DNA from: Actinomycetes bacterium
GTDB lineage: Bacteria; Actinomycetota; Thermoleophilia; BMS3ABIN01
Assembly: GCA_021787475.1 (NCBI GenBank)
Contig: JAJYLW010000016.1
Span: forward strand, 1-42,506
Length of the DNA: 42,506 bases
Reading direction: 5' to 3'
A program made the translations under genes and the position numbers. The notes beneath the pieces are model-generated. The model worked only from the letters and a program-made list of their open reading frames with translations. It had not been told where the DNA came from and did not search any database. The first letter of the stretch is position 1. Each line of letters starts with the position of its first letter. This document shows positions 13,854 through 24,828 of the stretch, piece by piece.

Positions 13854-13930
<77 letters not shown>

Positions 13931-15618: not shown

Positions 15619-15742
15619 TGAGCTCCCCAAAAATAATTCCCATCCTTTAAGATAGGTGACCTGCTGCCTTAATTGTAATAATAAGACAGGCGTAGTAGAA
15701 TTCTTGTCAGGGAAGACGGGGAGGGTATTTAAGGGAGCTTGC

Positions 15743-17527
15743 GTGAAGCCATTTTCATTCGAAGATCTTTCGGGTCCTGCCGCCGCGATGCAACTTCACA
15801 TCTTTCGGGCGTTGCGGCTTCTGGCATTGACAGGCACGGGCGGCGACGCCCATTCATATGAAGAGGTTAAGAAACTGGCTATCCAGTTGGAGTTAAACAG
15901 CCTCTCGCGCCTGAAGACCATTTTCCACAACCTTGACCTGGGAGAGCTTGAGCTTTCCATGGGCAACAATCAAATCCAGGTTTGTCTATCTCGCTCACCC
16001 GGATCCGGCCCGGCAGAACACCGGTGTGAGCTTGAAAAAGGCCTGATCGACGGCGCCCTGGAGCTTATTGCCGGAGTCCCGGTCACGACGGCAAATGCTG
16101 ACTGCGAACTGCGCGGTGACGGCTGCTGCAAGTTTGAAGCCATATTTAACGGCGACAGTTACGGTTCTGGTTTTTTACCAGGCAAAACCAGCAGCGTGCG
16201 GCCGGTTGTCAGCACCGGCGCCAGCATGGATGCGCTCCCGGACCTGCGCTCATGGTACCTGGATCTGGCTGGCCGTGAGCTTGCCCGCGCCAGGCGGCAC
16301 CAGCGCGCGCTCGCCCTGCTCTATATCGACATTGATGACCTGGGAAAAATCAACAGGCGTGCGGGGCGGCGGCACGGAGACGCTGCCATTAACGCAGCGG
16401 CGGCCTCATTGGGGAAAAACTGCCGCATGGAGGACATCGTCTGGCATAACGGCGAAGACGAGTTTGTGGTTTTGCTTTCCGAAGCCGGCCCTGGCGGCGA
16501 GGCCGCGGTAGCCGAACGGTTGACAACATTGATGTTTTTTGATGGAAGCGACGCCTTTTCGCCTCAGGTTAAAATGAGCATCGGCTTGAGCATCGGCTGC
16601 GCTGTCTTCCCCGGCGATGGCGAAGACATCCCCGGGCTGCTGACCGGGGCAAAAAAAGCCCTGTACCTGGCGAAGGCAGACGGAAAAGGGAAGTGGCGCG
16701 AGGCCGGAGCCGGTGGAAAAAACCAAAACGGGAAAGAGAAAAGCGGAGGGCCACGGGAAGGGGAAAAAGCAGGTTTGGGTATCGAAGCTGTAGACTCCGC
16801 CGAAGATCAGGTAAAAAGCAGCAGTGCTGCCCCGGCTGTAACCGGCAATGACGAGATTTCCCGGCGCGAAGACCTGCTCAAGGGGGCATCGGTTTTAATC
16901 GCTTCGATAAGCCCTCTCATTTTGACCGGTATGCGCGAAATAATCTCTTCCGCACAGCCCGTGCTGAAAAATGGAATCATTGCGAGCGAGATCACCGACC
17001 CCGCGAGTCTTCCCGAGGCCGTTCCCGACTTGCGGCCCGATCTGATTTTTACTGACATGCAAATGGCGACGCATGACAACTTTGCCCTCCTGCGCCTTGT
17101 CCGGGACGACAACCTTCCCTGCAAGATTGTGGTCTTTGCCGCAGATATAGACAGCGATGTGATCAAACTGGCTTCCAATTATTCCCTTGACGGCATGATA
17201 ATGCAGACAACGCCGGTCAACGAGACCCAGTCATTGCTCGATAAAATCTACCACGGGATTTCCTACCTGCCGGAGCAGGTCAGCGCCGCCTTGACCGAGG
17301 TTGAAAGCAACCGGCGCCAGTTGGGCGATCTTTCCGAACGGGAGCTTGAAGTTCTCAGGCTGGTGTCAGAGGGCAAATCAAATTCGCAAATTTCGGAACA
17401 ACTGTTCATATCCATTAATACTGTCCGGTTTCACCTGGCCAACATCTACCAAAAACTTGGCGTCTCAAACCGGACCGAGGCGGCCAATTATATTTTGCGC
17501 CATAACCTGAGGTCGGTCTCGTCATAA
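15743..17527 (+). CDS. V4R / GGDEF-like / REC-like / LuxR fusion regulator
   Basis: This predicted cytoplasmic transcription regulator has 594 residues. The N-terminal ~140 residues resemble a V4R ligand-binding domain, with GALELIAGVPV and the CELRGDGCCKFEAIF end. A GGDEF-type fold follows (about 170-320; YIDIDDLGKIN and ALYLAKADGKGKW), but its signature reads GEDEF (237-241). A charged Gly/Lys/Glu linker (about 325-370) leads to a receiver-like domain (about 380-505). That domain keeps the phospho-acceptor Asp438 (FTDMQ) but has lost the acidic pair (LIASISP) and the conserved Lys. A NarL/LuxR HTH ends the protein (about 529-590, LSERELEVLRLVSEG). GTG at 15743 is chosen over GTG 15656 because AAGGGAG precedes it at ideal spacing. 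The degenerate sites suggest ligand sensing rather than catalysis or phosphorelay. Confidence 0.88.
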   Translation: MKPFSFEDLSGPAAAMQLHIFRALRLLALTGTGGDAHSYEEVKKLAIQLELNSLSRLKTIFHNLDLGELELSMGNNQIQVCLSRSPGSGPAEHRCELEKGLIDGALELIAGVPVTTANADCELRGDGCCKFEAIFNGDSYGSGFLPGKTSSVRPVVSTGASMDALPDLRSWYLDLAGRELARARRHQRALALLYIDIDDLGKINRRAGRRHGDAAINAAAASLGKNCRMEDIVWHNGEDEFVVLLSEAGPGGEAAVAERLTTLMFFDGSDAFSPQVKMSIGLSIGCAVFPGDGEDIPGLLTGAKKALYLAKADGKGKWREAGAGGKNQNGKEKSGGPREGEKAGLGIEAVDSAEDQVKSSSAAPAVTGNDEISRREDLLKGASVLIASISPLILTGMREIISSAQPVLKNGIIASEITDPASLPEAVPDLRPDLIFTDMQMATHDNFALLRLVRDDNLPCKIVVFAADIDSDVIKLASNYSLDGMIMQTTPVNETQSLLDKIYHGISYLPEQVSAALTEVESNRRQLGDLSERELEVLRLVSEGKSNSQISEQLFISINTVRFHLANIYQKLGVSNRTEAANYILRHNLRSVSS

Positions 17528-17633: not shown

Positions 17634-17658
17634 TGCAAAACTGTCCGTTTGGTTTGCA
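17634..17658 (+). promoter_or_regulatory. Inverted repeat TGCAAA-N13-TTTGCA
   Basis: A partly symmetric site lies in the 264-base gap between the fusion regulator and the small peptide gene. It could be an operator for one of the neighbouring LuxR-type proteins. This is inferred only from symmetry and position. Confidence 0.3.
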
Positions 17659-17684
17659 TCTAAACTATCGCTTTGCAGGTGGCG

Positions 17685-17760
17685 TCTTCAGGCTCAATTC
17701 CCGAAGCTGTTTGAAGATTCACTCCCTGAAAGTCCTTGGGTGTGCGGATTGCCCATCAGG
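17685..17760 (+). promoter_or_regulatory. Two-hairpin leader upstream of small peptide gene
   Basis: Hairpin 1 (17685-17717) pairs TCTTCA-GGCT with AGCT-GTT-TGAAGA. Hairpin 2 (17725-17760) pairs CCTGA and TGGG with CCCA and TCAGG around an 11-base loop. The second hairpin ends 19 bases before a very strong ribosome site. The arrangement could be an RNA regulator, but it does not match the c-di-GMP, c-di-AMP or other riboswitch consensus I know. Confidence 0.4.
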
Positions 17761-17791
17761 TTATAGTTCGGCAATTGTCGGAGGTGACAAG

Positions 17792-17869
17792 GTGAAAACA
17801 AAGTTTTTTGGCGCCATCGCCACACTGGCCACTCTGATTACGGCGTGTGCCGGTAGCTGGAAGTTCTAA
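17792..17869 (+). CDS. 25-residue exported peptide / mini-lipoprotein
   Basis: A GTG start sits seven bases behind a near-perfect GGAGGTGA ribosome site. The peptide has a positive N-region (MKTKFF), a hydrophobic core (GAIATLATLITA) and ends CAGSWKF. ITAC fits a lipobox, so signal peptidase II would release a 7-residue lipidated Cys peptide; alternatively it is a signal-peptide-like pheromone precursor. It lacks the conserved C-terminal tail of AgrD, so it is not a standard cyclic lactone autoinducer. Its position between a LuxR-type fusion regulator and a membrane HD-GYP protein makes a signalling role attractive, but this is inference. The frame is open back to a TTG at 17633; the ribosome site favours the short form. 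Confidence 0.5.
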   Translation: MKTKFFGAIATLATLITACAGSWKF

Positions 17870-17946: not shown

Positions 17947-17976
17947 TTGGTTTTCATCATTAGCTTTTATTATAAT
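17947..17976 (+). promoter_or_regulatory. Promoter of HD-GYP gene
   Basis: TTGGTT (17947-17952), an 18-base spacer and a perfect TATAAT (17971-17976) lie about 40 bases upstream of the start codon. The surrounding sequence (17880-17990) is AT-rich, unlike the coding regions. Confidence 0.7.
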
Positions 17977-18017: not shown

Positions 18018-19424
18018 ATGGTGAGGTTTCAAAAGAGCGGCGCATCTGCGACTGCCTGGATTTTATTTCTTGCCGGCCTTGCTTTGCTCTGGCTGAGCAT
18101 CTCCGGGATCAATCTGCCGGGCAACCTTCTAAATGAAACGTCCCTGCTTAGCACTTTTGTCTTACTATCCTTTACGATAGTTGCTGAGGAGCTAACGGTT
18201 GAATACTCGCCGGGGATTTCTACAAGCGCAGGCAGCCTGCCCATTTTACTGGCTGTTTTTTTTATAAATCCGTTCGTTGCCGGCCTGATTGGCTTGACGG
18301 CAGCCGCCATAGCCTCCCGAAAGCTTCGTCCCTCTTCGATTGTTTTTAACCCTGTTAACTATGTGATGTCGGTTGCCGCCGTCTCAATGATAGTTAACGG
18401 CATCGGCCCGGTTTTGGGTCTGCGCTCCGCCGCGGGGGTCGATGTCGAGCTGCTCGTCATAGCCGCACTTGCCTCGGTCGCCTTCCTGATTACAAACTTC
18501 ACTCTCGGCTCGATATTCATTTTATTCCGGGACGGCATTAAACTTCGTGACAGCTGGAGCAGAAACTTTCTTGACGCCATCCCCTCCCAATTTATTTTTG
18601 TCGGCGTCTGCCTGATCGTTATTGCTGTTTATGCCAAGGCCGGCGTCGCCGCTGCCGTTCTGTTTCTGATTCCAATGTTTGCCGGCCAGCACGTATACAA
18701 GTTGCTGGTTCAACAGAAAGAACTGCTACTCGACCAAAAGAGCGTATCCCGGGAGTTAATGGATATGAATATCGGCCTGGCGGGCGCCTTGATCATGTTA
18801 CTTGACAGCAAGGATCATTATACGGCCAGTCACTCCGCCGGGGTCGCCGTTTATTGCCGCGACATGGCCAAGTTGATGGGCATGCCTTATGACCAGCAAC
18901 GAATCGCGCATATGGCTGGTCTGCTTCATGACCTGGGAAAGGTTGGCACGCCCGATTCCATATTGAAGAAAAGAGGCAGATTAACTCCCCAGGAGTGGGA
19001 ACTGGTAAAACAGCATCCCACCACGGCGGCGGAAGCGATCTCGCAGCTTGCAACCCACCAGGAAGTCGCGGAAATCATTCTCCACCACCAGGAGCGTTTT
19101 GACGGTACGGGTTACCCTTACGGCAAAAAAGGCGAAGAGATTCCCACGCTTAGCCGCATGCTGGCGGTTGCGGATACATACCATGCTCTGACTTCAAACC
19201 GGCCATACCGCGAGGCCAAGAGTCCTTTCGAAGCGTTAATTATTCTGCGGCGCGCAGCCGGAACACAGCTCGATCCTCAGTTTGTGGAAATCATGGCTCA
19301 GGTTCTTAAGAACGAAGATGTAAGCTATAGGGAGGGGAGCAAAGCCGACTTCCTGATCGAGTTTCAGAAAGACCGGCCCGCTCTTAAGTTGGACGCGATT
19401 CGCGCTCGCGCGAATGAACATTAG
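18018..19424 (+). CDS. Membrane HD-GYP c-di-GMP phosphodiesterase
   Basis: From the ATG at 18018 the protein has 468 residues. About seven or eight hydrophobic spans fill residues 10-225. A cytoplasmic HD-GYP domain follows (about 245-430), with HSAGVAVYCRDMA, the metal-binding H304-D305 (LLHDLGKVG), HHQERFDGTGYP (Y366-P367) and VADTYHALTSNRPYR. All main catalytic residues are present, so it should hydrolyse c-di-GMP. The integral-membrane sensor part is not one I can name. The likely start is ATG 18018, or GTG 18021, which is better spaced from GGAG. The gene stands just downstream of the small peptide gene but has its own promoter. A degenerate GGDEF protein lies two genes upstream; no active cyclase gene is in view. 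Confidence 0.9.
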   Translation: MVRFQKSGASATAWILFLAGLALLWLSISGINLPGNLLNETSLLSTFVLLSFTIVAEELTVEYSPGISTSAGSLPILLAVFFINPFVAGLIGLTAAAIASRKLRPSSIVFNPVNYVMSVAAVSMIVNGIGPVLGLRSAAGVDVELLVIAALASVAFLITNFTLGSIFILFRDGIKLRDSWSRNFLDAIPSQFIFVGVCLIVIAVYAKAGVAAAVLFLIPMFAGQHVYKLLVQQKELLLDQKSVSRELMDMNIGLAGALIMLLDSKDHYTASHSAGVAVYCRDMAKLMGMPYDQQRIAHMAGLLHDLGKVGTPDSILKKRGRLTPQEWELVKQHPTTAAEAISQLATHQEVAEIILHHQERFDGTGYPYGKKGEEIPTLSRMLAVADTYHALTSNRPYREAKSPFEALIILRRAAGTQLDPQFVEIMAQVLKNEDVSYREGSKADFLIEFQKDRPALKLDAIRARANEH

Positions 19425-19703: not shown

Positions 19704-22526
19704 TCAATCCTGAAAAGTTGTATTTTCCCCTCGCCAATCCTCATGATAAAAAAATGCGGCTTCCCACCTGTTCGTCACACCCAGCTTCTTAAAAATCTTG
19801 TTGATGTGTGTCTTAACCGTCTTCTCACTGATAAACAGCTGCTTTGCTATGTTAACGTTTGAGGCACCTGTTGCCAGCAACCCGAGGATCTGCTCCTCGC
19901 GGTTTGTGAGCACGTCAGACGGGGCCTTTAACAGGCTCCGAAGGTGCCGCAACGATTGCCTTACACTCCGCCGCGCAAGCGGGTCCGCATCATTGATGAT
20001 CCGCCGCAGCAAAGCGATGCCGTCCGTATCGCCAATCCTGCCAATTAGGACCGCGGCGGTGGCTCTCACGGCGGCGTCATCATGCTCCAGGAGAGAGGCC
20101 ATCGCGGGGAGAGCTTGCTTGCCGATTCGCTCGATCAGCCAGGAAATATAATCCACCTCTATGTTATTAACCACCGCCAAAGTTAAAAGTGGAGAAAGAA
20201 TCTTGCATTCCTGAATTGTCACGTGGTTGTGCTGGAATACACGCACCCGCCTGAGCGCCTGCTCCAGGAAGCATTTCGCTTCTTTCTCACGTCCCTTGAG
20301 GTGAGCTGCCCAGGCAAGATAAAGGTCGGCCAGCGTCAGAACGCAACCAAAATTAAAAGCCGATGCCGCTTTTTTTGAGTTGATCAAGTGCGCGGCTGCT
20401 TCACGGTTGCCCAGCAGTAGCAGGTCCGCACCCAGCGCGGCTTCAGCGGCGGCCGCATAATAATGATCTTCCCACCTTCTGGCAATGCGCATGCTTTTTT
20501 CATGATACTGGCAGGCGGCGGCGAAATCCTGGCGGCGCCGCTCAAGGGAGCCTAAATGGCAAAAGACTCTCGCTAGCATCGTCCCCGAAGCATCGCCGCT
20601 GATTGCGACAACAATGGCGCGCTCCAGGCAAGCTTGCCCCTCTTCGGCAAAACCGGCAGCTATCAAAGCGCTTCCGTTAATATCGAGAGCCAAGGGCAGG
20701 ATTCTTCTCTCTTGTCTTTTTTCGATCCAATCAAGGCCCTCGTTGGCCTGCTTTAGGCATTCCTCATAGTTGCCCTGTTTCAGCACGCATTCGGAAAAAT
20801 TGATTTGCGCCAGGTTGGATTGGCTTGCCGGAATATCGTGGCTTAATGCTGAAGCTAGAAGCTCCTGCGCGCGGCTTATTTCGCCCCTCCTCATCGCTGC
20901 CGCGGCCAGAATCATGTTTAGCGGACCGGATTTTCGCTCCAGTCCGTTTGCGGCCAGCAAATTAAACGCCTTTTTTTGATAAACAGCCGATTCTTTGTAT
21001 TTTGAGGCCTCGTGATTTATCTCGGCCAGTTTACAGGTTACGTCAAAACCGAGAAGCGGGGGTAAAAGATGAAACGGCAGCTTTTTTAATTCCTTTATCG
21101 CCATCCGCCGTGCGCCCATGCGTTTGTAACAATCAGCCAGGTCTATCGCGGCACGGCAGACAAGCGCCATCTCATGCTGAGCAAGTTCCGCTCTGGCGCG
21201 ACGCAGTTTTGCCAAAGCCTGCTTGTATCTGGCACCAGCAATCATTACTTCGGCTTCGCAAATTTGCAAGGCCGCCGGCAGTGTTTTCTTTGGCAGCTTC
21301 ACAAGCCACCGCTTAAGAACTGGATACTCGGCTTTCCAGACCATCTTTTCCCAAATGGCGGATAAAACCGCGAGCGCCTGTTCATAATGGGCGCCCGCCA
21401 GATATTGTTCAACAGCCTGCCGTTCCTGGCCCGCCGCGTTCAGAGCATTGCCTGTCTGCAATCTCAGCTTTCTGATTCTTTCTTTTTCAAACTGGGCCAG
21501 TCGCGATTGCAGGAACCGGCGAAAAAGCGGATGGAACCGGTACAAAGTCTCTGATTCCCGGAAGCGCTCCAGAAACAGGTTGTCCGTTTCCGCCCTCTTG
21601 AAATAGTTCTTGGAATTATCTTTGCCCAGAACCACATCGATTATCTTCGGGTCAACGACATTCATTAGCGAACTCTGTATCAACAGCTCCTTCATTTCCT
21701 CGGCCTGATGATCAATAACTTCTTCAGCGAGGTACTCATAAATGTTTCTGAGCGCAAGCGGGCCGTCGAGCGATCCTGATAATTTGCCGCGCGTTTTTAA
21801 TGCGTCGATGATCAACACTGCTCCCGCAATCCAGCCCTCGGTGAGGTCGTAGAGGGTGCTAATTGTCGCTGCCTCCATGGGCACGCCCCAGGCGGAGGTG
21901 ATAAGCTCCTCCATCTCCGCTGACGAGAACTTGAGCTGGTTGCCGCTTAATTCTTTTACCAAGCCGAGGGAATGGAGGCGCCGGAGCGGTATCTGTGGCC
22001 GCCTGCGGCTTGCAATGACCACAAAAACGTTATCGGGCAAGCAGTGAGCCATCTGTGTTATCAGCCTGTCGGCAAACCGTTTGTTATCAAGCAGCTGAAA
22101 ATCATCAAAATAGAAACCGAGTGGTTGCTCGTCCGGCTCGGCCTCATCCGCCAATGCTGCCAGGATGATGCCTGCTTCGGCGCGGATATCATCCGCTTCG
22201 GCCAGGCGTTTCAGGCTGCGTGATCCCCTGATCCCACAGGCGCGGGATGCAGACCCGATTAAATTCTTGAGGAAGCGCTCCGGATTGGTGTCGATCTCAC
22301 TGAGCCTGTACCAAACATTCTTTCCGGGGAAGGACAAGGACAGCTGCGACATTAAAGTTGTCTTGCCGTACCCTGCGGGGGCGGAGATCAGCGCCAGCCC
22401 GTGGCCCATAACTGGTTTCGCTGCCTCAACCAGCCGCGGGCGCAGAAGTGCGTGCCTCATTTTTGGCGGCACAGTTTTTACCTCGAGCATGGGTGCCGGT
22501 TCCATGCCCATTGCTTCATGAAGCAC
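19704..22526 (-). CDS. MalT-like ATPase-TPR-LuxR regulator with HEAT module (1)
   Basis: This large signal-integrating transcription regulator has 940 residues. An N-terminal STAND-type NTPase has Walker A APAGYGKTTL (49-58) and Walker B GFYFDDFQLL (about 136-145). A long alpha-helical TPR-like region follows (about 340-780). Two HEAT-like units (about 800-865; PAMASLLEHDDAAVRATAAVLIG and LLRRIINDADPLARRSVRQSL, given here in parts) precede a C-terminal LuxR HTH (about 875-935; LTNREEQILGLLATG, VKTHINKIFKKLGV). In MalT the TPR part binds inducer and ATP drives oligomerisation. GTG at 22526 is preferred over TTG 22532 because GGGAGG lies six bases upstream. It is the second gene of a tandem pair, 25 bases after its paralogue. 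Confidence 0.9.
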   Translation of the reverse strand: MLHEAMGMEPAPMLEVKTVPPKMRHALLRPRLVEAAKPVMGHGLALISAPAGYGKTTLMSQLSLSFPGKNVWYRLSEIDTNPERFLKNLIGSASRACGIRGSRSLKRLAEADDIRAEAGIILAALADEAEPDEQPLGFYFDDFQLLDNKRFADRLITQMAHCLPDNVFVVIASRRRPQIPLRRLHSLGLVKELSGNQLKFSSAEMEELITSAWGVPMEAATISTLYDLTEGWIAGAVLIIDALKTRGKLSGSLDGPLALRNIYEYLAEEVIDHQAEEMKELLIQSSLMNVVDPKIIDVVLGKDNSKNYFKRAETDNLFLERFRESETLYRFHPLFRRFLQSRLAQFEKERIRKLRLQTGNALNAAGQERQAVEQYLAGAHYEQALAVLSAIWEKMVWKAEYPVLKRWLVKLPKKTLPAALQICEAEVMIAGARYKQALAKLRRARAELAQHEMALVCRAAIDLADCYKRMGARRMAIKELKKLPFHLLPPLLGFDVTCKLAEINHEASKYKESAVYQKKAFNLLAANGLERKSGPLNMILAAAAMRRGEISRAQELLASALSHDIPASQSNLAQINFSECVLKQGNYEECLKQANEGLDWIEKRQERRILPLALDINGSALIAAGFAEEGQACLERAIVVAISGDASGTMLARVFCHLGSLERRRQDFAAACQYHEKSMRIARRWEDHYYAAAAEAALGADLLLLGNREAAAHLINSKKAASAFNFGCVLTLADLYLAWAAHLKGREKEAKCFLEQALRRVRVFQHNHVTIQECKILSPLLTLAVVNNIEVDYISWLIERIGKQALPAMASLLEHDDAAVRATAAVLIGRIGDTDGIALLRRIINDADPLARRSVRQSLRHLRSLLKAPSDVLTNREEQILGLLATGASNVNIAKQLFISEKTVKTHINKIFKKLGVTNRWEAAFFYHEDWRGENTTFQD

Positions 22527-22535
22527 CAACAACCT

Positions 22536-22544
22536 CCCCCCCCC
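22536..22544 (-). repeat. G9 homopolymer in leader of LuxR regulator 1
   Basis: Nine consecutive G residues on the minus strand run straight into the AGG of the ribosome site of the 19704-22526 gene. Such tracts can slip in length and alter expression. It is the only homopolymer of this length noted at a translation start in the window. Confidence 0.6.
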
Positions 22545-22551
22545 TATGCAG

Positions 22552-24828
22552 TCATTCCCAGTTTAGAACAAGGCCTTTCTGTTTCTGCAGGTGGCTCTTG
22601 AAGTACTCGATCACCTGCCTCCGCCTGTTCAACCCAATTTTAAGAAAGATATTGGAAACATGCCTTTTGACTGTAGCCTCGCTAATTGACAGTTTCCCCG
22701 CGATTTCCATATTGCTTAACCCAGAGGCTATTTTTGTCAGGATTTGCTTTTCACGCCTGGTGAGCAACTGCCAGGGATCGACGACGGCCGTGTGGATTTC
22801 GGCAAGCTCTTTTCTGGCGACGGAGCGGACATGAGAGTCTTTATCACGCAGAAATGGCCGAAGCGTCTCCGCGGCCGCCGGCCCGGCCGCCGCCGCAAAA
22901 GCAGCAATGGCGGCCGCTCTTTCCGCCGCCGGCTTGCCTGTCAGCAGGCGGGCCAAAAGCGGCATCGCTTCCTCCCCAATCAGACCAAAAATGTTTTTAA
23001 GGAAATCGCGCTCAACGTTGCATTCAAAAGCATAGGCCAATAATTCCACGTTGATTCTGCCTTCCCCGGCAATGAAGCGGCGATGCGATAAAGGTGCGGC
23101 AAGGCCCAGGGCGGCCTTGATATGCTTGCCCGCCTGCGCTTTTCTGCCGGTATGAAACGCCTTCCAGGCCCAGTGGAAATTACATTGGCATTCTACATAT
23201 TTGTAACCGTGGCGACGCGCCAGCGCAAAAGCAGCGGCAATCTCATTTTCGCCGGCATCGCCCAGCCCACTGCTAATTCTGAATTTGTCGGCGCCGATAT
23301 TTGCGAGGATGCCGGCATATTCAATCAGCCTTTTTTCACTGCTTCGGCAGCATGCCAGACTCTGCTCGTGGAGATCTAACGCCATGCAGAATGCGCCCAT
23401 CCGCCTGGCCTGCGTTCCCATGCGATTGGCCGTAAGCGCGCTGTAGCGAAGGCCTTTGTGATTCTCCGCCGCCCTGAACCGGTGCGCGGCCCTGGCAACA
23501 AGGTCTTTGGAGCCGGCTGGCTCGGCTCTGTTGAAATTAATATGCGCCTGAGCAAGGCAAAGCCAAGGGTGCTTTATCTGTAAACCTGGGGGAATTTTTT
23601 CCAGCCAGTTCTCGACTGTCTCAAGGCTTTCCGCTTCGACCAGCCCGGCTGCCAGCCCCTCTGCCAAACTGGCGGCACAGTCAAAGTCTTCCGCCTCGAT
23701 GAAGTGATGAACTGCTTTGCGGACATTGCCGGCGCCGGCATACGCGCGCGCAAAATTGCGGTGCAATTTACTTATTTCCGACCTGGAATGAACCTGTTTC
23801 AGTTTATAAACAAGAAACTCGCGAAACAGAGGCTGGATGCTGAAAGTTGCATCAGGCTCATCTGTGGCGGTTATCAAACCAGACAATTCGGATTCATTAA
23901 CAAACAATCCCTGCCCAGTTTCTATTCCGGCCAAAGCGCAAATGGCGGGCTCAACCGGTTCGACCAGCGAGCACTCCATGAAAAAATTGCGGCGCCACGC
24001 GTCGAGGCCGTTCCAGATTTCGGTCAGGTAGCCATTGAGCGCATCCGGACGATTGATCAACTCTGACACTTTTTCAGCAAAGGCATTCCTCCGTTCGGTC
24101 AGCTCCGCTCTTATAATGTCAAGAGGGGCGGGCCAGCCTCCGCCAGCCTCATGCCATGCCATAATCTCCTTTTCGGTCCAGCGCATCCCTGCCGCCGGGC
24201 GGAGGAATGCAGCGGTCTCTTCAGGGGTGAACTTGAGATGCGACTGATTGATTTCGACCACTTCACGTGCCGCGCGCAAGCGGCCGATGCCCAGATTTGG
24301 CCTCGATCTGGCAGCAACATACATGCGGCTGCCGCGGGGGAAATGGCCAAGCAGGTGCCGGACAAATGCGATTGTCTCAGGGCTGTCATTGACCATCTCT
24401 AGGTTATCGAAAAACAAGGTCAGCGGTATTAAAGTCTTTTTGTGCAGTTCCTGAACAAAATCAAAAGGCGATTCGGCCGCACCCTCGCCGCTGTCTAGCA
24501 GCCCTCGGTAAACTTTTTCCTCGAGGCTGCCTCCAAACCCGGGTTGAAGACGGCGCGCTGCTAAAATGAGACTTAAAATAAAATTGCGCAAATCGCGGTC
24601 GCTGTCCTGAAATGAATGAAAAATTGAATTGCCGCGGCAGCGGCTTTCAAGTTGTTTTAAGAGTGTTGTTTTGCCAAATCCAGGGCCGGCAGTAATGACC
24701 ACCAGGCTCTCATCGTTTACTCCCAGAACCTGTCTTTCCAGCCGCAAGCGAGTCAGCAAACTTGCGCCGGCAGGTCTTCCTTTTCTATATTTAATTGGGC
24801 ATTTCATGAAACAAGCATGCAAAGGCAT
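22552..24828 (-). CDS. MalT-like ATPase-TPR-LuxR regulator with HEAT module (2)
   Basis: This paralogue of the downstream gene has 758 residues. The NTPase has Walker A AGPGFGKTTL (47-56) and Walker B LTLFFDNLEM (about 134-143). A shorter helical repeat region (about 340-600) is followed by HEAT-like units (about 610-685; EEAMPLLARLLTG, LRPFLRDKDSHVRSVARKEL). The LuxR HTH is at about 692-750 (LTRREKQILTKIASG, VKRHVSNIFLKIGL). It is about 180 residues shorter than its neighbour, mostly in the TPR section. The ATG at 24828 has no ribosome site; the internal ATG at 24807 is an alternative. It is the first gene of the pair and has a good promoter 40-68 bases upstream. Confidence 0.9.
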   Translation of the reverse strand: MPLHACFMKCPIKYRKGRPAGASLLTRLRLERQVLGVNDESLVVITAGPGFGKTTLLKQLESRCRGNSIFHSFQDSDRDLRNFILSLILAARRLQPGFGGSLEEKVYRGLLDSGEGAAESPFDFVQELHKKTLIPLTLFFDNLEMVNDSPETIAFVRHLLGHFPRGSRMYVAARSRPNLGIGRLRAAREVVEINQSHLKFTPEETAAFLRPAAGMRWTEKEIMAWHEAGGGWPAPLDIIRAELTERRNAFAEKVSELINRPDALNGYLTEIWNGLDAWRRNFFMECSLVEPVEPAICALAGIETGQGLFVNESELSGLITATDEPDATFSIQPLFREFLVYKLKQVHSRSEISKLHRNFARAYAGAGNVRKAVHHFIEAEDFDCAASLAEGLAAGLVEAESLETVENWLEKIPPGLQIKHPWLCLAQAHINFNRAEPAGSKDLVARAAHRFRAAENHKGLRYSALTANRMGTQARRMGAFCMALDLHEQSLACCRSSEKRLIEYAGILANIGADKFRISSGLGDAGENEIAAAFALARRHGYKYVECQCNFHWAWKAFHTGRKAQAGKHIKAALGLAAPLSHRRFIAGEGRINVELLAYAFECNVERDFLKNIFGLIGEEAMPLLARLLTGKPAAERAAAIAAFAAAAGPAAAETLRPFLRDKDSHVRSVARKELAEIHTAVVDPWQLLTRREKQILTKIASGLSNMEIAGKLSISEATVKRHVSNIFLKIGLNRRRQVIEYFKSHLQKQKGLVLNWE

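Follow-up and report, generated by a model that had tools for sequence, protein, structure and literature searches.

The 25-codon gene just upstream of a membrane HD-GYP protein in the stretch of DNA analysed here (the window, 42,506 nucleotides in full) is, judging from its conservation in relatives, a real gene under purifying selection at the codon level. By the same comparisons, it belongs to a previously unrecognised family of 24–33-residue peptides, found in at least 19 families of one phylum. Three things were observed for this gene family: it is under selection, it is tied in the genome to MASE9-like membrane proteins, and its C-terminal tail has recurred independently. Genes of this family nearly always stand beside a membrane-bound signalling enzyme, and this suggests a peptide signal feeding second-messenger control. 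Our preferred reading, held tentatively and at close to an even chance, is that the product is a small signalling peptide acting as dedicated partner of the adjacent MASE9-like sensor, with its tail presented or released outside the cell and read by the MASE9-like domain. The small gene beside MASE9-like proteins across the phylum offers a concrete candidate ligand or subunit for MASE9.

A protein search of 40 relatives recovered the peptide as a free-standing ORF of 25–26 residues in congeners and family members. It is present in 12 of the 19 genomes of the window's own family (f1), and its position, reading frame, length and ribosome site (GGAGGTG in the window) are kept in 11 relatives. Within f1, variation is greatest at third codon positions and pN/pS amounts to 0.42; over seven groups the ratio ranges from 0.17 to 0.61, values that are upper estimates, since synonymous sites are near saturation. 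The earlier note on this DNA had picked out the small gene from the letters of the window and had given non-conservation of the frame in relatives as the ground for discarding it. The frame was found phylum-wide, which decisively removes that ground. A length of only 25 codons might suggest a chance ORF, an explanation refuted by conservation and selection across many families and to which we attach a negligible probability. Features of the locus are collected in Table 1.

Table 1. Features of the window around the peptide gene (positions are those of the window)
Feature	Position	Strand	Remarks
tRNA gene	13857-13930	-	Rfam 65.4 bits; between CAP-domain and NlpC/P60 genes
V4R-GGDEF-receiver-like-LuxR (GerE) fusion regulator	15656-17527	+	Domain matches; adjoins the peptide gene upstream
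Promoter-like block AACTGTCC...ACTATC, 5' of the peptide gene	17638-17669	+	Conserved; putative function
Predicted leader hairpin region (structured leader of the earlier note)	17684-17722	+	Leader no stabler than shuffles; not treated as functional
Shine-Dalgarno GGAGGTG of the peptide gene	17780-17786	+	GGAGG invariant in aligned f1 leaders
25-codon peptide gene, VKTKFFGAIATLATLITACAGSWKF	17792-17869	+	GTG start, TAA stop; ORF translation
TATAAT, possible -10 of a separate HD-GYP promoter	17971-17976	+	Several relatives have a similar TATAAT here
Membrane HD-GYP protein, MASE9-like multi-helix N-terminus + HD_5	18018-19424 (best start ATG 18018)	+	HD_5 E 2.9e-45; proposed peptide partner/reader
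LAL/MalT-type regulator (AAA/STAND, TPR, LuxR HTH)	19704-22532	-	Convergent with the cassette

The members of the family (for example MKARIYTILTALATLVLAGGARFRF, MKTKIIVLLTSLAALVLGGGAGWRW, MKLAKRIALALGSLAALLLAGGAHWKG and MSKRLLVAMSSLAALVLSAGANVSWIR) follow a common pattern: an M-x(0-8)-[KR]-rich start, an L-A-[AT]-L helix, a [small]-G-[GA] element and a tail of 3–7 residues, typically x-[WF]-[KR]-x. The window peptide matches the cross-family profile with an E value of 8e-8, being itself one row of that profile. It has A in place of the central G (CAGSWKF), it shows the other family features, and its HD-GYP neighbour matches the family HMM.

Two groups of peptides, those of f3 and f7, were first noticed beside HD-GYP genes, and the other groups were reached via the peptide profile alone. 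In f3, 25–26-mers with a different tail, such as MKKVENALASIVLVLVASGGNSKIH, stand beside HD-GYP orthologues, and a profile made from them yielded four more members by sequence alone. In f7, the peptide MSQLKYRAYPLLITAITVIAATGAGFRGN and its relatives precede HD-GYP, with a divergent MerR-type gene upstream. A combined profile then recovered members in other classes from peptide sequence alone. Improved profiles detected members at E <= 0.02 in 21 of the 27 genomes of one class and in 25 of the 36 genomes of another, and an iterated profile run across the phylum gave 57 of 396 genomes at E <= 1e-3. The count of at least 19 refers to the search tool's numbered families among the loci examined. 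A possible peptide was looked for near the HD-GYP genes of f5 and f8 and did not turn up, and plasmid records contained no relative. No Pfam or NCBIfam model covers this widespread gene family, probably because of its small size. At the f7 loci (L093–L099), the regulator divergent to the peptide/HD-GYP pair is CarH-like, with repeated GATGCAAA-like motifs between.

The neighbourhood of the peptides was described with an HMM built on the membrane half of the HD-GYP proteins. A MASE9-like gene lay within about 1.5 kb of the peptide at 75 of 86 loci, against none of 53 control loci, where the same peptide profiles had matched by chance within long frames. Two of the 11 loci without a match are cut by contig ends, and no match was seen within 1.5 kb in 9 of the 25 f19/f53 loci. 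At the few of the 86 loci that had longer flanks, the match was again directly beside the peptide. In f1, the HD-GYP orthologue occurs in exactly the 12 peptide-bearing genomes and is missing from the same seven that have no peptide. The assignment to MASE9 (Pfam PF20972, cut-off 24.3 bits) rests on the matches of the homologous partners at L137 (31.3 bits), L138 (28.1 bits) and L171 (25.1 bits); the window protein itself scores 15 bits (E 0.025), below the cut-off. Its sequence carries an HHE.R.DG.GYP-type motif, HHQERFDGTGYP, and has the features that define an HD-GYP phosphodiesterase. An AF2 model of it, from a three-sequence alignment, had a pLDDT of 36 and was not used.

Inspection of the output domains revealed MASE9-HD_5 in most families and GGDEF-EAL in f19, and in one genome (G427) the peptide is flanked on either side by HisKA_3 kinases of the MASE9 type. 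Since the outputs vary while the MASE9-like part stays, the peptide travels with the membrane domain, and not with the output domain or the regulators. Five loci (L137, L139, L140, L141 and L224) share a longer synteny, consisting of a hibernation-factor-like gene, an unknown conserved gene of about 220 aa with no Pfam match, the peptide, two MASE-type HD-GYP genes, and a DUF5317-like gene or SecA.

The earlier note had described two adjacent hairpins ahead of the gene as a structured leader. The 117-nt leader of the window proved no different from dinucleotide shuffles (z = -0.12, with 89 of 200 shuffles equally stable), had no match in Rfam scans, and failed to align with the leaders of most relatives. 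Hairpins are seen in the leaders of one related genus, where two-sided changes affect only 7 of 41 predicted pairs (5 sequences), a weak outcome for the covariation check that the note had suggested. A riboswitch or structured RNA leader was rejected for the window after Rfam scans, folding and alignment folding, and the hairpin claim was given up. Further upstream, a block of the form AAC[CT]GTCC-N16/17-[A]CTATC, recognised by eye in the alignment, is common to the window and its relatives; it has no match to the sigma-70 consensus, and the TATAAT ahead of the HD-GYP gene is not part of a full sigma-70 match.

The peptide gene often lies 50–200 nt upstream of the MASE9 gene in the same direction, and f3 has further short ORFs upstream, an arrangement that would suit a leader peptide or attenuator controlling translation or transcription of the downstream gene. 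In f4 and over much of f19/f53, however, the peptide gene and the MASE9 gene point away from each other, or the peptide genes come as tandem pairs, and these arrangements disfavour such a role. So do the conservation of the whole peptide at the amino-acid level and, in the window, the unstructured leader with no Rfam match. We therefore give the leader-peptide explanation very little credence.

The gene order in f1 is LuxR fusion, peptide, HD-GYP and convergent LAL regulator, and in the window the LuxR-type fusion upstream and the membrane HD-GYP protein downstream stand as the earlier note placed them. That note had also considered the neighbouring regulators as readers of the peptide, a role that does not extend to the family as a whole: at E <= 1e-40, orthologues of the LuxR fusion occur only in f1, and two genomes (G007 and G009) keep the fusion without the peptide. 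The LAL regulator is kept as a neighbour within f1, with orthologues limited to f1 at the threshold used; it carries TPR-like repeats there and is not of the Rgg/PlcR type. Both were rejected as obligatory partners, being unconserved outside f1, whereas the MASE9-like protein is the constant neighbour. The combination of V4R, GGDEF, receiver-like and LuxR HTH domains in the fusion is unusual and specific to the family. In the window, two adjacent LAL/MalT-type STAND-TPR-LuxR regulators (19704–24828, minus strand) are convergent with the peptide/HD-GYP cassette.

Genes for an oligopeptide-binding protein (SBP_bac_5) lie beyond the LuxR fusion in most f1 loci, the window's clade being without one, and also flank the peptide cassette in f4. 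They are suggestive, and only that, of a classical imported pheromone, whose tail would enter through an oligopeptide permease and be read inside by the LuxR fusion or by the LAL/TPR regulator, with HD-GYP as an output gene only; the conservation of the LAL regulator in f1 points the same way. Nevertheless, the restriction of both regulators to f1 at the thresholds used, and the fusion without peptide in the two genomes just mentioned, argue against it, as does the finding that no oligopeptide permease was detected within the window. Outside f1, moreover, MASE9 is the neighbour everywhere. Import by Opp to the LuxR or LAL regulator is possible in f1 and cannot be the common mechanism; as an account of the peptide, we consider it improbable.

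Comparison of the peptides among themselves points to the tail as the part that is recognised. The tail contains K, R or H in 74 of 77 peptides, and W, F, Y or H in 68 of 77. In f3, short ORFs of 8–25 residues, which have no hydrophobic helix and are located 40–230 nt upstream, end in K-[ILMV]-H like the 25-mer. They were present in 7 of 7 leaders, that is, in all f3 loci with enough upstream DNA (locus range L072–L079), versus 0.0005 per shuffled leader. One of these ORFs, MKCEAGKMHISFAGKMHISFAGKMH, repeats the tail motif three times (GKMH x3); at another locus, two ORFs follow the form MTSxPVKIHAPVKIH. All loci were searched for mini-ORF copies of the tail, and clear cases came only from f3 and, in the form of full peptides, from f19/f53. 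In the latter, two unlike tandem peptides share their tail within a genome (WKPN/WKPY, WKV/WKV, WKAN/WKAN, WKG/WRG). This matching of tails was reached by 7 of 720 permutations, whereas for the helices 522 of 720 permutations did as well, revealing no covariation. What is supported of the earlier proposal is a real gene for a peptide of secretory type whose C-terminal tail is functional, linked to the membrane HD-GYP protein.

The tandem copies of f19, together with the small size, the hydrophobicity and the basic or aromatic tail, would also be in keeping with a type I toxin-like or antimicrobial peptide. A toxin would hardly explain the fixed MASE9 neighbour, nor that the peptide is usually present in one copy per genome, and this possibility seems to us highly improbable. 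In f19 (L144:1356-1980; L143 4659-4900, minus strand; L150), tandem peptides of types A and B with matching tails are separated by GC-rich inverted repeats, and the pairs adjoin a DUF5317 membrane gene, a domain on which no paper was found. Six f3 loci (L072, L073, L074, L076, L077 and L078) contain Sigma-28/WhiG-like promoters, TAAAG-N-GCCGATA. One, on the minus strand, points to a divergent MFS gene; another, present at three loci, is a plus-strand site in the interval separating peptide and HD-GYP. A link to motility or development is possible.

Conservation is not confined to the tail. The helix core A-L-[AT]-[SAT]-L-A-[AT]-L is conserved in a position-specific way, at 1.85 times the shuffled value; the corresponding figure for 26 signal peptides of lipoproteins encoded at these loci is 1.12. 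As these controls share no homology with one another, part of the excess may reflect common descent. Such conservation exceeds the needs of a mere export signal. An intact one-span membrane micro-subunit is thus a serious rival: packing, uncut, on the MASE9 domain of its own cell, the helix would set the activity or stability of the enzyme. Besides the helix core, whose conservation between classes goes far past that of ordinary signal peptides, this reading would account for the median of 18 uncharged residues, which suffices for a short span, for the constant total length (24–33), for aromatic residues at the outer end that suit a membrane interface, and for the constant MASE9 partner. Taken alone, it leaves unexplained the recurrence of the tail without a helix in the f3 mini-ORFs and the matching of tails, not helices, in the f19/f53 pairs, and homologous descent may explain part of the helix conservation. 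On balance we hold the intact subunit to be unlikely and favour the tail as signal, the tail evidence speaking for the signal and the helix evidence for the subunit. Both could be true, if the peptide stays uncut and offers its tail to the MASE9 domain.

Cleavage before the tail is compatible with the sequences. Signal peptidase I follows a (-3,-1) rule of small residues, and the column counts at this place, A-x-G|[GA], fit it. The residue at -1 is almost always Gly; a nearly invariant Gly at this position is unusual for signal peptidase I.

A different processing had been proposed in the earlier note, which read the ITAC of the window as a lipobox and CAGSWKF as a 7-residue product of lipoprotein type. 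The lipobox is indeed present in the window, but its Cys is limited to 3 of 77 peptides, those of the window and of two congeners. Other members carry A-[SGA]-G-G at this position, so lipidation is not a property of the family. The Pfam model LPAM_1 matches 2 of 34 peptide members, with E >= 0.028. Consequently, a lipoprotein or lipoprotein-derived pheromone was rejected; since its Cys is specific to one lineage, CAGSWKF is unsupported as a lipoprotein-type product. What is conserved as a unit is the helix followed by a tail of about five residues, G/A-x-[WF]-[KR]-x.

In the mechanism that we prefer, where the tail is the signal, the N-terminus of the peptide (M-x-[KR]) would stay inside, and the hydrophobic helix of 15–18 residues would carry the peptide into or across the membrane. 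The last 4–6 residues after [small]-G-[GA] (G-S-W-K-F in the window) would be displayed at the outer face, or cut and released there. The MASE9-like membrane domain would recognise this tail and relay its state to the output domain, which is an HD-GYP c-di-GMP phosphodiesterase in the window, and GGDEF-EAL or a histidine kinase elsewhere. We infer the membrane topology, the release of the tail, its binding and the direction of the effect on c-di-GMP.

More broadly, MASE9 domains might be receptors for a phylum-wide set of ribosomally made short peptides with Trp/Lys-Arg tails, such that c-di-GMP phosphodiesterases, diguanylate cyclases/phosphodiesterases and histidine kinases all read the same type of signal. 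This extension is plausible, and on the whole we doubt it somewhat. If true, it would define a peptide communication system distinct from the Agr, RRNPP and ComC types and wired straight into second-messenger metabolism. There is a real chance that MASE9-like proteins are a new receptor class. A review of c-di-GMP sensing lists MASE1 as a domain without known purpose, with no ligand recorded, and names only BDSF and AI-2 as quorum-sensing ligands of c-di-GMP enzymes, with no peptide signal (PMC8846402). Our literature searches found no relevant paper on MASE9 (PF20972), and none linking small peptides to HD-GYP or MASE9.

Among known systems, AgrD/AgrC pairs a small peptide precursor gene with a multi-helix membrane sensor, and here too the peptide gene adjoins such a sensor. 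In contrast to AgrD, the present peptides have neither a conserved core Cys for a thiolactone nor a C-terminal recognition region, and no AgrB-like gene was identified. Membership among the AgrD cyclic lactone autoinducers was rejected, as the NCBIfam cyclic lactone peptide models gave no match at E <= 0.1 and the peptides end 3–7 residues past G-[GA]. The small membrane proteins KdpF, AcrZ and CydX are enzyme subunits made of a single hydrophobic helix of about 20 residues with one dedicated partner, a description that also fits the peptides studied here. To our knowledge, no known small membrane subunit belongs to a c-di-GMP enzyme or a MASE-type domain.

The resemblance to the SHP/Rgg and ComS/XIP systems of streptococci is wider. 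Those genes are also very short and rarely annotated, with a basic start and a hydrophobic stretch, the candidate signal is formed by the few C-terminal residues, and the cognate partner gene is adjacent; ComS-type tails are tryptophan-rich (PMC3679016, PMC5131902, PMC7564271). Oligopeptide transport genes are nearby as well, in our case in f1 and f4. The partners of SHP and ComS, however, are cytosolic RRNPP regulators, reached after import of the peptide (PMC3679016, PMC5131902, PMC7564271), whereas the present peptides have a membrane MASE9-like domain with a c-di-GMP or kinase output as their constant partner, and the phylum is another one. Membership in the SHP/Rgg or ComS/ComR (RRNPP) systems was rejected, since no RRNPP-type cytosolic regulator is adjacent and the constant neighbour is MASE9-like. 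DbfQ of Vibrio cholerae, a periplasmic protein that binds the sensory domain of the histidine kinase DbfS, provides another parallel: a small secreted protein encoded beside a membrane sensor, which it modulates directly, in a pathway that ends in c-di-GMP control (PMC12714742). The present peptides differ in having 24–33 residues and an all-membrane sensor domain. By analogy, the peptide would work most like the SHP/ComS-type peptides or a small secreted modulator such as DbfQ, while being neither by partner or by sequence.
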